A stretch of DNA of 35,532 nt from Myxococcaceae bacterium. Its GTDB lineage: Bacteria > Myxococcota > Myxococcia > Myxococcales > Myxococcaceae. The position numbers and the translations under genes are program-made. The stretch covers positions 1 through 35,532 of the forward strand of contig JAKEEX010000251.1 in NCBI GenBank assembly GCA_022616315.1. Direction: 5' to 3'. The notes beneath the pieces were generated by a model that saw only the letters and a program-made list of their open reading frames with translations, was not told the origin of the DNA and did not search any database. This document shows, piece after piece, positions 1,238 through 5,892 of this stretch (the first letter of the stretch is position 1; every line of letters starts with the position of its first letter).

Positions 1238-2335
1238 ATGACCCCTCCGAAGTCGGAGCGCGTACAGGCCGTGGACTGGTTCCGTGGACTGGCAGTGCTC
1301 GTCATGGTCCAGTGCCACGCCCTCGCCCTCCTCCGTCCGGAGCTCCGCCGGACCGAGGCCACGGCGTGGCTCCTCCGGGTGGACGGCCTCGTGGCCCCCG
1401 CCTTCCTCTTCACCGCCGGCTTCGCGCTCGCCCTGGTGCAGCTGCGCACCTCCGGGACGCCGCTCGGAGCGCGGATGCGGGCGTCGCTCGGGCGCATCGG
1501 CAAGGTGCTCGGCGCGGCGACCCTGGTCAACGGGATGTGGTTCCCGTTGCTCACCCAGCCGCGGTGGCTCTTCCGCATCGACATCCTCCACTGCATCGGG
1601 CTGTCGCTGCTGATGGCGCTCCCCCTCGTTGCTCCCCTCGCCACGAGGCCCCGGCTCCTCCGCTGGGCCTCGCTCGCGACGGGGCTCGCGCTCTTCCTCG
1701 TGGCCCCGTTCGGCGAGTCCGTCACGGGCCCCTTCGCGGGACTCTTCAACAAGGGCAACGACTCGGTGTTCCCCGTGCTGGTGTGGGTGGGCTACGTCTT
1801 CCTGGGTGCCAGCGCGGGCACGCTCGCGAGCCGGAGGGAGCTGGTGCGGTGGATGGGGCTCCTCGGCGCGCTCGGCGTCCTGCTGTGGGCGCTGACGCCG
1901 GTGAGCCTCGACCTCTACCCGCCCCACACGTTCTGGCTGAGCAATCCGAGCAACCACGCGCAGCGCTGGGTGTTCGTCTGCGGCGCGCTCGCCCTGCTCC
2001 TCGTCGGGGAGCGCGCGCTCCTCGCGGCGCCGTGGCGCGCTGCGGCGCTGAGGTGGGTGGCGGGGTTCGGCGCGGCCTCCCTCTCCGCGTACGTCTTCCA
2101 CGAGGCGCTCCTCTTCCGCAGCGTGGGGGGTGTGTCCTTCGAGGCCGTGTGGGGCAACCGCAGCGGGTGGGTTCAGTACGCGGTGCTCACCGTGACCCTC
2201 ATCGCCCTGACGGCCGTGCTCTGCAGGCTGTGGAAGCGCGCTTCGGGGATGGGTGGAAGGCTCGTGCGCGAGCAGCTCCCGGCATGGCGTGAGGCGCGCG
2301 CCGCGCGGCCCGTCCTGGGCCCGGAACAGACCTGA
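1238..2335 (+). CDS. Integral membrane acyltransferase, HGSNAT/DUF1624-like
   Basis: A 365-residue polytopic membrane protein with about ten hydrophobic segments. The N-terminal stretch RVQAVDWFRGLAVLVMVQCH has the D-x-x-R-G-x-x-x-x-x-M pattern followed by a His that is typical of the heparan-alpha-glucosaminide N-acetyltransferase-like (DUF1624, YeiB-related) membrane acyltransferases. A second conserved-looking segment, LFRIDILHCIGLSLL, lies near residue 110. Such proteins are thought to move acyl groups across the membrane onto sugars or other acceptors; the substrate here cannot be told. The ATG at 1238 is the first Met of the frame, and the membrane segments begin straight after it. It stands alone: the gene upstream is divergent and the next gene is convergent. 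Confidence 0.75.
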   Translation: MTPPKSERVQAVDWFRGLAVLVMVQCHALALLRPELRRTEATAWLLRVDGLVAPAFLFTAGFALALVQLRTSGTPLGARMRASLGRIGKVLGAATLVNGMWFPLLTQPRWLFRIDILHCIGLSLLMALPLVAPLATRPRLLRWASLATGLALFLVAPFGESVTGPFAGLFNKGNDSVFPVLVWVGYVFLGASAGTLASRRELVRWMGLLGALGVLLWALTPVSLDLYPPHTFWLSNPSNHAQRWVFVCGALALLLVGERALLAAPWRAAALRWVAGFGAASLSAYVFHEALLFRSVGGVSFEAVWGNRSGWVQYAVLTVTLIALTAVLCRLWKRASGMGGRLVREQLPAWREARAARPVLGPEQT

Positions 2336-2388: not shown

Positions 2389-2613
2389 TCAGCGCCCCAG
2401 CGCCCGCGCGACCGCGTCCACGACTTCCTGCTCCGTGGGGAAGCCGGTGGGTCCGCGGCTGGCAATCACCCGGCCATCCACGGCCACCTCGAAGATGCCG
2501 GAGCTCCCGACCTTCAGCTCGGCGTCCACGCCCAGGTCCTCTCGCAGCGCGGCCGCCACACGGACGGCCCGGGGCTTGTAGCCTCAAGCGGTGCAGTAGG
2601 TGATGGTCACCAT
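2389..2613 (-). CDS. SelW/Rdx-family selenoprotein with in-frame UGA (selenocysteine)
   Basis: The gene is 75 codons from ATG at 2613 to TGA at 2391-2389, if the in-frame TGA at 2586-2584 (codon 10) is read as selenocysteine. The product begins MVTITYCTA-U-GYKPRA, so the TGA sits exactly at the second redox position of the C-x-x-C/U motif that defines the SelT/SelW/SelH (Rdx, thioredoxin-like) family. After the TGA the frame is intact and matches the family: GIFEVAVDGRVIASRGPTGF then PTEQEVVDAV. Length (74 aa) is typical for bacterial Rdx proteins. A GGAGG lies 11 nt before the ATG. A SECIS-like hairpin follows the TGA. Family members are small thiol/selenol redox proteins of unclear substrate. 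It lies 77 bp downstream of the PAP2 gene on the same strand. The alternative, a Cys gene broken by mutation, is less likely because codon position, frame and hairpin all agree. Confidence 0.88.
2551..2569 (-). promoter_or_regulatory. Bacterial SECIS-like hairpin after the selW UGA
   Basis: On the mRNA strand, 15 nt after the UGA, a stem GGCCG / CGGCC encloses a single unpaired U, then a 2-bp CC/GG upper stem, then the tetraloop GUGU. A bulged U below a 2-bp upper stem and a loop with G followed by U is the arrangement SelB recognises in the E. coli fdhF SECIS. The loop begins 23 nt after the UGA, in the usual range for bacterial SECIS elements. The hairpin lies inside the coding sequence, as bacterial SECIS elements do. 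SelB binding is inferred; no sel genes lie in this window. Confidence 0.72.
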
Positions 2614-2690
2614 GATGGCCCATGCCTCCGCGGGGACCCGCCCGTTGCGCTCCGGGCTCGCAGCAACGGTGCGCCCGCTTCACCCGCGTT

Positions 2691-3401
2691 TCAAGTCCGC
2701 CCGAGGGCCTGGAAGACACGCCACGCGGCGAGCGCCCACGCGCCCCCGAGCGCCCAGCCGCCGAGGACGTCCGAAGGATAGTGCACGCCGAGCACCACGC
2801 GGCTCACGCCCACGAGGAGAACCACGAGGAGCGCCACCACGAGGAAATAGCGGGCGAGTGCGCGCGAGCGTGAGCGTGACGCCAGCAGCACGGCGAGCGT
2901 CGGATAGACGCTCGCCGCGAGCATGGCATGGCCGCTGGGGAAGCTGTGGGTGACCGTTTCCGCGAGGTGCGGCACCACGTCCGGACGCGCCCGTTCGACC
3001 AGCAGCTTGAGCGCATTCACGAGGACCTGGGCGCCCGCCATCAGGAGCAGGACGAAGAGCGCGGCAGCGCGCGAGCGCTGGAGCCAGAGGGCGCCCGCGA
3101 GGACGACCGCGAGCCCCGTCGTGACGACACCCGAGCCCAGGGCCGTGAGGTCACGGACGGTGTCGACAACCCAAGAGGGGCCGAGGAGGCGGGCGGGATC
3201 CGCGGGGTCTCGCATCGCCCTGAGCAGTGCGGAGTCGAGGGACGGTGGAAGCGGTGCGCCGCTCCAGAGGAGCCACACGCAGAGGAGTGACAGACCGAGC
3301 ACCACGCTCACCGCGACGAGCGGGAAGCGCGGGGGTGGCCGGCGGCCGGGCGTCCGGTCGTCCACGGCTCCAGAGCGGGCTGGCGGCAGCGGCGTGCTCA
3401 C
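2691..3401 (-). CDS. PAP2-superfamily membrane phosphatase
   Basis: A 236-residue protein with a short cytoplasmic N-terminus and about six membrane segments. All three PAP2 (type 2 phosphatidic acid phosphatase) motifs are present: K132-x6-R139-P140 (KLLVERARP), P155-S-G-H158 (FPSGHAM) and S200-R-x5-H207-x3-D211 (SRVVLGVHYPSD). The catalytic histidines are H158 and H207. The family dephosphorylates lipid phosphates such as phosphatidate, phosphatidylglycerophosphate or undecaprenyl pyrophosphate at the outer face of the inner membrane; which one applies here cannot be decided. The ATG at 3401 is the only sensible start before the first hydrophobic segment. It may be co-transcribed with the selenoprotein gene downstream. 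Confidence 0.92.
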   Translation of the reverse strand: MSTPLPPARSGAVDDRTPGRRPPPRFPLVAVSVVLGLSLLCVWLLWSGAPLPPSLDSALLRAMRDPADPARLLGPSWVVDTVRDLTALGSGVVTTGLAVVLAGALWLQRSRAAALFVLLLMAGAQVLVNALKLLVERARPDVVPHLAETVTHSFPSGHAMLAASVYPTLAVLLASRSRSRALARYFLVVALLVVLLVGVSRVVLGVHYPSDVLGGWALGGAWALAAWRVFQALGRT

Positions 3402-3582: not shown

Positions 3583-4926
3583 ATGGCGGAGCAGACTCGC
3601 AAGGTCCTCGTGGACGCCATCTGCGCCTCGGCGCAGCCGTGGGCCGAGACGGCGGACGACCTCGAGCTCTTCATGGAGCGCGTTGGAAGCGCACGCCTGG
3701 TCCTGCTCGGCGAGGCCACCCACGGGACACACGAGTTCTACCGGACCCGCGCGCTCCTCACCCAGCGGCTCGTTGCCGAGAGGGGATTCCGCGCGGTCGT
3801 CGTCGAGGGTGACTGGCCGGACGCCGCGCGCGTCAACGCGTACATCCTCGGTCTGGGCGACGACCCCGACGCGTCCGAGGCGCTCGGCCACTTCCGTCGC
3901 TTCCCGCTCTGGATGTGGCGCAACGACGACGTCGTGGAGCTCGTGGAGTGGCTCCATGACCACAACATGACCCTCAAGGCGCGCGAGAGTCGGGCGGGGT
4001 TCTACGGGATGGACCTCTACAGCCTGCACCGCTCCATGGACGCCGTCGTCCGCTACCTCGAGGAGACGGACCCGGAGTCCGCGGCCGTGGCCCGGCTTCG
4101 CTACGCCTGCTTCGAGCGCTTTCCACAGGACGCGACCGCCTATGGGCGCTTCGCTGCCCGCTCGGAGTCGTGCAGGGAGCAGGTCATCCAGCAGCTGGTG
4201 GCCTTCCAGCGAAGGGCGCTCACGCTGGCCCGAAGACGCGCGGACGTGGACGCGGATGCCCACTTCGAGGCCGAGCAGAACGCACGCATCGCCGTGGCGG
4301 CCGAGGAGTACTACCGCACCCTCTGGGAGGGAGGCGCCTCCGGCTGGAACCTGCGCGACGCACACATGGTGGAGACGCTCGTGCACCTGGAACGACACCT
4401 GGCGTCGCGCGCCGACGGGCCCGTGAAGATGGTCGTCTGGGCGCACAACTCGCATCTGGGTGACGCGAGGGCAACGGAGCTCGCGGACGCGGGCGAGCAC
4501 AACGTGGGCCAGCTCGTGCGTCAGCGCTGGGGGACGGAGTGTCTCCTCGTCGGCTTCACCACGCACCACGGCACCGTCACCGCCACCTCCGAGTGGGACG
4601 GTGATGCCGAGCGCAAGCGGGTGCGGCCCGCCCTGAGGGACAGCTATGAAGCGCTGTTCCACCACACGGGGATGCGGAGCTTCCTGATGGACCTGAGGGA
4701 CCTCGGAGAGGCCGCTGCAGGACTGAGCGAGCCGCGGCTGGAGCGCGCCATCGGTGTCATCTACCGGCCCGAGTCCGAGCGGCGCAGCCACTACTTCCGC
4801 GCCACCCTGCCCCGCCAGTTCGACTGCGTCTTCCAGTTCGACGAGACGCACGCCCTGTCGCCCCTCGAACGCACGTCGCAGTGGGAGGCCGGCGAGACCC
4901 CCGAGACGTTCCCCTCGGGCTTCTGA
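3583..4926 (+). CDS. Erythromycin esterase family protein
   Basis: A 447-residue protein. The frame is open further upstream, but ATG 3583 (MAEQTRKVLV) is chosen because GGAGG lies 10 nt before it and family similarity starts here. Near the N-terminus LLGEATHGTHEFY carries the conserved G-E-x-x-H-G-x-x-E signature (E44, H47, E51) whose Glu and His are catalytic in EreA/EreB-type esterases. Further signature stretches are VVEGDWPDAARVN near residue 84 and VVWAHNSHLGDAR near residue 285. Founding members hydrolyse the macrolide lactone ring, but most chromosomal homologues, including those common in soil bacteria, have unknown substrates, so macrolide resistance should not be assumed. It is divergent from the PAP2 gene and upstream of a drug-efflux operon on the same strand. 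Confidence 0.9.
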   Translation: MAEQTRKVLVDAICASAQPWAETADDLELFMERVGSARLVLLGEATHGTHEFYRTRALLTQRLVAERGFRAVVVEGDWPDAARVNAYILGLGDDPDASEALGHFRRFPLWMWRNDDVVELVEWLHDHNMTLKARESRAGFYGMDLYSLHRSMDAVVRYLEETDPESAAVARLRYACFERFPQDATAYGRFAARSESCREQVIQQLVAFQRRALTLARRRADVDADAHFEAEQNARIAVAAEEYYRTLWEGGASGWNLRDAHMVETLVHLERHLASRADGPVKMVVWAHNSHLGDARATELADAGEHNVGQLVRQRWGTECLLVGFTTHHGTVTATSEWDGDAERKRVRPALRDSYEALFHHTGMRSFLMDLRDLGEAAAGLSEPRLERAIGVIYRPESERRSHYFRATLPRQFDCVFQFDETHALSPLERTSQWEAGETPETFPSGF

Positions 4927-5112: not shown

Positions 5113-5892
5113 ATGGCCCGTCCCGCAGATCCCCACGCCCGCTTCGCCCTCACCTCGGCCGCGCGTGCGGAGTTCGTGAAGCGCGGCATCCGGGGCGCAC
5201 GCATCGAGGACATCACCGCCGCATGCGGGCTCTCCAAGGGTGCCTTCTACCTGCACTTCGACTCCAAGGAGGCCCTCTTCCGCGACGTGGTGACGGCCCT
5301 CACCGGGGAGCTCGAGCGCCTCACGGAGGAGCGCATCCGCCTCGTCGAGGGTCTCTTCCGCGACCTCGCCCGGAGCCGCAGTCGCCTGAGCGCCGCCGAC
5401 CAGGCCGAGCGCGTGGAGCGCGTGTTCTGCCTCGAGGTCGAGGCGGACGAGCGGCTCCTCGAGCTCTTCTGGGACAACCGCGACGTCATCGAGGTGCTGA
5501 TCAGTGGCTGCCAGGGGACGGAGTTCGAGGGCCAGTTCTGGCGGATGGTGGACCGCGAGGTGCACCGGGTGGGCCACAACATGGAGTGTCTGCAGGGCCT
5601 CGGCGCCTGCCGCCCGGACGTGCCACCCGAGCTCTTCGGCTCCCTCCTGGTGGGGGCCTACGTCGTCGTCGCCAAGCAGCTGGGCAAGGCGAAGGCCAAG
5701 CCGGACCTCGCCGCGTGGGCACGCAGCCTCCACCGGCTCATCCACGAGGGCGCTTCTCCGGGGCACCTGACACACGCGGCACCCGCTGAGGGGCTGAAGG
5801 CCGCCGGCGGCGTCGCTGCACGCCCTCTCCGCCGGTCAGGTGGCGCGATTCGCCGCAATCCCGCCCGTTCGTCCCCGAGGAATCGTTCGTGA
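5113..5892 (+). CDS. TetR-family regulator of the efflux operon
   Basis: A 259-residue TetR/AcrR-type repressor. The N-terminal helix-turn-helix is clear: AREFVKRGIRGARIEDITAA-like residues 17-37 followed by CGLSKGAFYLHFDSKEALF (about 38-56), the canonical recognition helix of the family. The C-terminal half is the alpha-helical ligand pocket and dimer interface and is not predictive of ligand. The last about 40 residues are Arg/Pro/Ser-rich and end inside a 34-bp direct repeat, so the tail may have been altered by that duplication. It is first in a same-strand set with the fusion protein, RND pump and outer-membrane factor, so local, ligand-relieved repression is the likely role. ATG 5113 has no strong Shine-Dalgarno at normal spacing. 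Confidence 0.93.
   Translation: MARPADPHARFALTSAARAEFVKRGIRGARIEDITAACGLSKGAFYLHFDSKEALFRDVVTALTGELERLTEERIRLVEGLFRDLARSRSRLSAADQAERVERVFCLEVEADERLLELFWDNRDVIEVLISGCQGTEFEGQFWRMVDREVHRVGHNMECLQGLGACRPDVPPELFGSLLVGAYVVVAKQLGKAKAKPDLAAWARSLHRLIHEGASPGHLTHAAPAEGLKAAGGVAARPLRRSGGAIRRNPARSSPRNRS

Follow-up and report, generated by a model that had tools for sequence, protein, structure and literature searches.

Whether an in-frame TGA near the start of a short reading frame ends translation or specifies selenocysteine (Sec) is the question raised by one locus in the window analysed here, a stretch of 35,532 nucleotides of myxobacterial DNA. A preliminary description had placed a selenoprotein gene of the SelW/Rdx type at positions 2389-2613 and had left the strand unspecified; the coordinates hold, and the strand is minus: the gene runs from 2613 to 2389, opening with ATG and having TGA both at codon 10 and at codon 75 (Table 1). 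The plus-strand frame over the same interval is meaningless and unrelated to anything like SelW. Read on the minus strand, the codon-10 TGA occupies the final place of a C-T-A-U motif, that is, the second redox position, and the frame continues, as claimed, for 64 codons to a stop which is itself a TGA. With the first TGA rendered as U, the product has 74 residues (MVTITYCTAUGYKPRAVRVAAALREDLGVDAELKVGSSGIFEVAVDGRVIASRGPTGFPTEQEVVDAVARALGR). The ribosome-binding site said to precede the ATG is present as well, at a spacing of 11 nt that is a little long.

Table 1. Positions of the selW-like gene, its signals and its neighbours; all entries refer to the window except the last, which is taken from a related locus.
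Feature	Position	Strand	Basis or remark
selW-like gene (Rdx family, 74 aa, CxxU)	2389..2613, TGA stop included	-	frame and Pfam/NCBIfam matches
Codon 10, TGA in frame, predicted selenocysteine (CTAU motif)	2584..2586	-	frame, relatives
Bacterial SECIS hairpin GGCCGTC-CGTGT-GGCGGCC	2551..2569	-	fold, pairing and covariation in relatives
Terminal TGA, read as stop (predicted)	2389..2391	-	frame; homology stops there
Shine-Dalgarno-like GGAGG, 11 nt ahead of the selW ATG	2625..2629	-	sequence
PAP2-family phosphatase gene	2691..3401	-	Pfam; ends 77 nt upstream of the selW start
HGSNAT_cat-family membrane acyltransferase-like gene	1238..2335	+	Pfam; convergent with selW
Gene for a TauE/SafE (TSUP) transporter immediately preceding selW, example from L041	1710-2489	minus

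The family assignment given in the preliminary description is borne out by two curated profiles. With the TGA read as a residue, SelW scores 53.3 bits against Pfam Rdx (PF10262; curated cut-off 22.6) and 49.0 bits against NCBIfam CXXU_selWTH (TIGR02174; cut-off 34.2), and in an Rdx profile search of the host genome the selW match reaches E = 6e-11 with one TGA inside it. Solved Rdx proteins that match it by sequence include C17orf37 (2ljk, E = 1.6e-10), SAV_2001 (3dex) and selenoprotein W (2npb), and its solved relatives include proteins with SelT/SelW/SelH domains.

Conservation continues past the TGA. Over codons 11-60, all of them downstream of it, dN was below dS in 12 of 12 pairwise comparisons with relatives (dN 0.20-0.40; dS 0.46-1.13, a value itself lowered by the hairpin described below), in agreement with the earlier claim of family-typical sequence beyond this codon. 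Given the profile match, the excess of dS over dN and the same TGA in 65 of 68 related genes, the frame beyond the TGA is, as judged from these comparisons, more than chance. The simplest alternative is that the TGA is a true stop, leaving either a decaying Rdx pseudogene or only a 9-residue peptide; TGA is, after all, a normal stop in this code, and selW itself ends in one. However, 86 genomes of the order share this TGA as a fixed feature, the sequence behind it evolves with dN below dS, homology reaches the end of the domain, a SECIS hairpin is conserved and the genome holds the full Sec machinery. A true stop is thus very unlikely, and on the sequence comparisons a pseudogene is in practice excluded.

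The distribution of the TGA among relatives bears on a second alternative, namely that it is an assembly or sequencing error for a cysteine codon (TGC or TGT), which a draft, metagenome-like assembly in 912 contigs might well contain. Rdx genes were found in 87 of the 145 genomes of the order, 88 genes in all, and 86 of these carry exactly one TGA, the other two none. Read codon by codon in an alignment of homologues, a check that had been proposed at the outset, 65 of 68 Rdx genes have TGA at the Sec site and 3 have TGC; some genomes are represented twice in this set, and some of its sequences come from outside the order. The genes with TGA at this site come from independent genomes, finished single-contig ones included. 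A codon that recurs in 86 of the order's 88 Rdx genes is no sequencing error, and we give that explanation next to no weight.

The remaining alternative accepts the long product and dispenses with selenium: UGA might be read through as an ordinary amino acid, by a near-cognate tRNA for Trp or Cys or by a suppressor tRNA. Bacteria do show low-level readthrough of UGA. The TGA form co-occurs, however, with the genes for Sec synthesis: selA is present in 84 of the 86 TGA-bearing genomes (the two in which it was not detected, G050 and G124, are 80% and 87% complete), tRNA-Sec is present in 81 of the 86 by comparison of the lists, and the only genome with a Cys copy alone lacks both. Decoding of the TGA as Sec would produce such a pattern, which together with the conserved hairpin makes readthrough without selenium very unlikely. 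A near-complete genome, G077, has no selA over cut-off, no tRNA-Sec and no Rdx gene, and other members of its genus have selA; a recent loss of the whole Sec trait is likely there. The preliminary description had called Sec decoding an uncommon trait, a view that does not fit this bacterial group, where it is the rule (selA scores over cut-off in 128 of the 145 genomes of the order).

The host genome is a draft of 5.54 Mb (93.5% complete, 3.8% contamination), and its fragmentation accounts for the sel genes lying on contigs other than that of selW. The named relatives nearest to it belong to Archangium, Corallococcus and other Myxococcaceae, which places the host among the myxobacteria. Searched one gene family at a time, the genome shows all four components that decoding was said to need elsewhere in it: selA (542 bits), selB (317 bits against a cut-off of 242), selD (379 bits) and a tRNA-Sec with a UCA anticodon (71.4 bits). 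The selD gene (L016, 1474-2526) itself carries an in-frame TGA at codon 20, in the context HCAGUAAKLP, with a hairpin downstream. Two further frames of the host are interrupted in a similar way, both at recognised Sec sites: a molybdopterin oxidoreductase gene resembling fdhA (L092, G000:C121, from 16108 onward) has its in-frame TGA where Sec usually stands (...ENQARIUHSSTVPG...), and a peroxiredoxin frame (L091, G000:C471, minus strand, about 910-1314) has one in a TxxU motif (...YPAAFTPVUTVQMP...), so that this peroxiredoxin, with its FTPVU, is a predicted selenoprotein. The host is therefore predicted to have four or more selenoprotein genes, and the SelW case would not be an isolated one. 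A search of plasmid records gave no match.

A candidate bacterial SECIS (bSECIS) hairpin lies within the coding sequence directly after codon 10. It has a 7-bp stem and a 5-nt loop with G in second place, the loop starts 21 nt past the UGA, and the fold energy is -11.5 kcal/mol. As set out in a 2026 review (PMC13188914), bSECIS elements have a loop of 3-9 nt, a stem of 4-16 bp, a spacing of 16-37 nt and an MFE of at most -7.5; one of the first two bases of the loop is a G, and the base after it is often G or U. The selW hairpin agrees with each of these. A strong hairpin also follows the terminal UGA, but with a loop that starts only 10 nt downstream, outside the range of 16-37 nt. Any single hairpin of this kind could owe something to GC-rich coding: when the window gene is recoded synonymously, about 10% of the variants reach 7 pairs, and 2% reach the energy of the hairpin. 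We judged the single-sequence energy test weak on these grounds and turned instead to covariation and codon choice across the family.

Across 37 distinct sequences, 96.1% of the stem cells are paired, and compensatory changes occur at three of the seven stem pairs (G-C to A-U, C-G to U-A and C-G to G-C). The covariation score of 0.281 compares with 0.173 after shuffling, and none of 500 shuffles scored as high; kinship of the sequences inflates this test, and more weight is due to the slid controls, in every one of which covariation was lower, and to the codon test. For the latter, the Arg codon in the loop was tabulated in 45 sequences, giving CGT in 34, CGG in 11 and CGC in none, against 32 CGC and 5 CGT among the other 142 Arg codons of these selW genes; the other genes of the window also favour CGC (104 of 210 Arg codons). 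CGT and CGG are exactly the codons that yield the G[G/U] motif of the loop. In a more distant relative (L074) the register is kept by a 7-bp stem whose sequence differs, and a 6-bp stem of yet another sequence folds in this region in L038-L040. SelW-like genes bearing a TGA also occur in Verrucomicrobiota (L032, L033, L035), where an additional codon follows the motif and a CCGTG-loop hairpin resembles the myxobacterial one; these would be distant SelW-like selenoproteins outside the Myxococcota.

The few genes with cysteine at the Sec site provide natural controls. The three TGC readings represent two distinct genes, one in G038 (counted twice) and the second copy in G087, and U10 of SelW aligns with the Cys of both (L037 and L066 copy 2). 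No genome other than G038, which is 98% complete, has a TGC copy and no TGA copy, and G038 has neither selA nor tRNA-Sec; in its copy the seven stem positions can still pair, with a fold no better than that of recoded controls. The G087 copy has lost the hairpin, with three of seven pairs left and a CGA codon in the loop. It belongs to a tandem duplication (L066, G087:C44; reverse complement, with sites at about 3265 and 3639, 374 nt apart), in which one gene has TGA and the SECIS hairpin and the other has TGC and no hairpin. In the protein tree, which has too few columns for resolving deep forks, the pair groups with the Sec gene of G089 (support 97/85), and it is probable that in this genome, which decodes Sec, one copy changed from Sec to Cys once the gene had been duplicated.

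We consider it almost certain, from the comparative sequence data, that the region encodes a SelW-like selenoprotein (Rdx family, thioredoxin fold) in which the UGA of codon 10 is read as Sec, as had been proposed; the machinery, the recurrent TGA, the conservation beyond it and the covarying hairpin all support this. Those grounds for refutation named in the preliminary description that sequence data can address (missing sel genes, a miscalled codon, homologues that diverge past the TGA) were checked, and the claim withstood each of them. Frame, homology, machinery, conserved UGA and covariation are direct observations, and from them we infer both the actual insertion of Sec at codon 10 and a redox function for the CxxU pair. 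During translation, SelB with Sec-tRNA(Sec) would read UGA at codon 10 as Sec, prompted by the bacterial SECIS hairpin that begins 14 nt downstream of this codon; the charged tRNA would be supplied by SelA and by SelD, the latter with its own in-frame UGA, and the terminal UGA, having no correctly placed hairpin, would be read as a stop. The Cys-x-x-Sec pair would most likely make the product a small thiol/selenol oxidoreductase.

That the catalogued family of SelW-like CxxU selenoproteins (PF10262) gains a new member in the window gene is well supported, and the family, its decoding mechanism and its preference for Sec are all known already. With the bacterial SelW-like (SELENOW-like) proteins (PF10262, TIGR02174) it shares an N-terminal CxxU, a single domain of about 75 residues, a UGA-encoded Sec (here predicted) and a bSECIS directly downstream; mechanistically there is no difference, the host in the present case being a myxobacterium. 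Mammalian selenoprotein W (2npb) and C17orf37 (2ljk) belong to the same fold family, with CxxU or CxxC at the same place, but the SECIS of eukaryotic SelW lies in the 3' UTR, whereas the hairpin here lies within the coding sequence, right after the UGA. Rdx proteins of the Cys form, such as SAV_2001 (3dex) and Atu0228 (2fa8), have the same domain by sequence; we take them to carry Cys at the Sec position and to have no need of UGA decoding.

Members of this family have been reported repeatedly. SelW-like proteins were the most abundant family of the Sargasso Sea selenoproteome in 2005, with 48 genes (PMC1088965); in 2006 they were recorded in Geobacter sulfurreducens and Desulfotalea among others, with Cys homologues scarce or absent in organisms that use Sec and no Sec-to-Cys events given for the family (PMC1794560); and the 2026 review lists them under PF10262, with CxxU, as "predicted with high confidence" (PMC13188914). 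The passages located in these three sources name no SelW-like gene from the Myxococcales, and the only myxobacterium met in them, Anaeromyxobacter, is entered without one. A literature search combining Myxococcota with selenoproteins returned nothing relevant.

The gene neighbourhood is variable. The PAP2 gene upstream might possibly be co-transcribed with selW; a conserved PAP2-selW operon was rejected, no PAP2 homologue being found near selW in the relatives examined. The HGSNAT_cat gene is convergent with selW in three relatives also (L021/L045, L047, L066). Further along the window, a gene of the erythromycin esterase family (3583-4926, plus strand; Pfam Erythro_esteras, 416 bits) adjoins that of a TetR-family regulator (5113-5892). 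A gene of the TauE/SafE family on the same strand ends just before the selW start or overlaps it at 22 of 67 loci, or for 15 of 54 SelW proteins when only distinct ones are counted; none lies beside selW in the window, and the four TauE genes of the host are on other contigs. This neighbour weakly suggests a link to sulfur or selenium in part of the group. It is conceivable, though we think it rather unlikely, that in many myxobacteria SelW shares a transcript with a TauE/SafE-family anion exporter and acts with it in handling sulfur or selenium oxyanions and not as a general thiol reductase, the window gene having lost this neighbour or never had it; a search of the literature on SelW and TauE found nothing relevant.

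Among the Rdx genes of this order of myxobacteria, the predicted use of Sec in SelW is thus the rule, and gene callers that stop at UGA would miss so short a gene. The conserved loop codon and the natural Sec/Cys controls (G038 and the G087 tandem pair) make dependence on the SECIS directly testable; the G087 pair is in addition a small contribution to the record of Sec-to-Cys changes for SelW-like proteins, and the frequent TauE/SafE neighbour offers a lead to the function of these proteins in bacteria.
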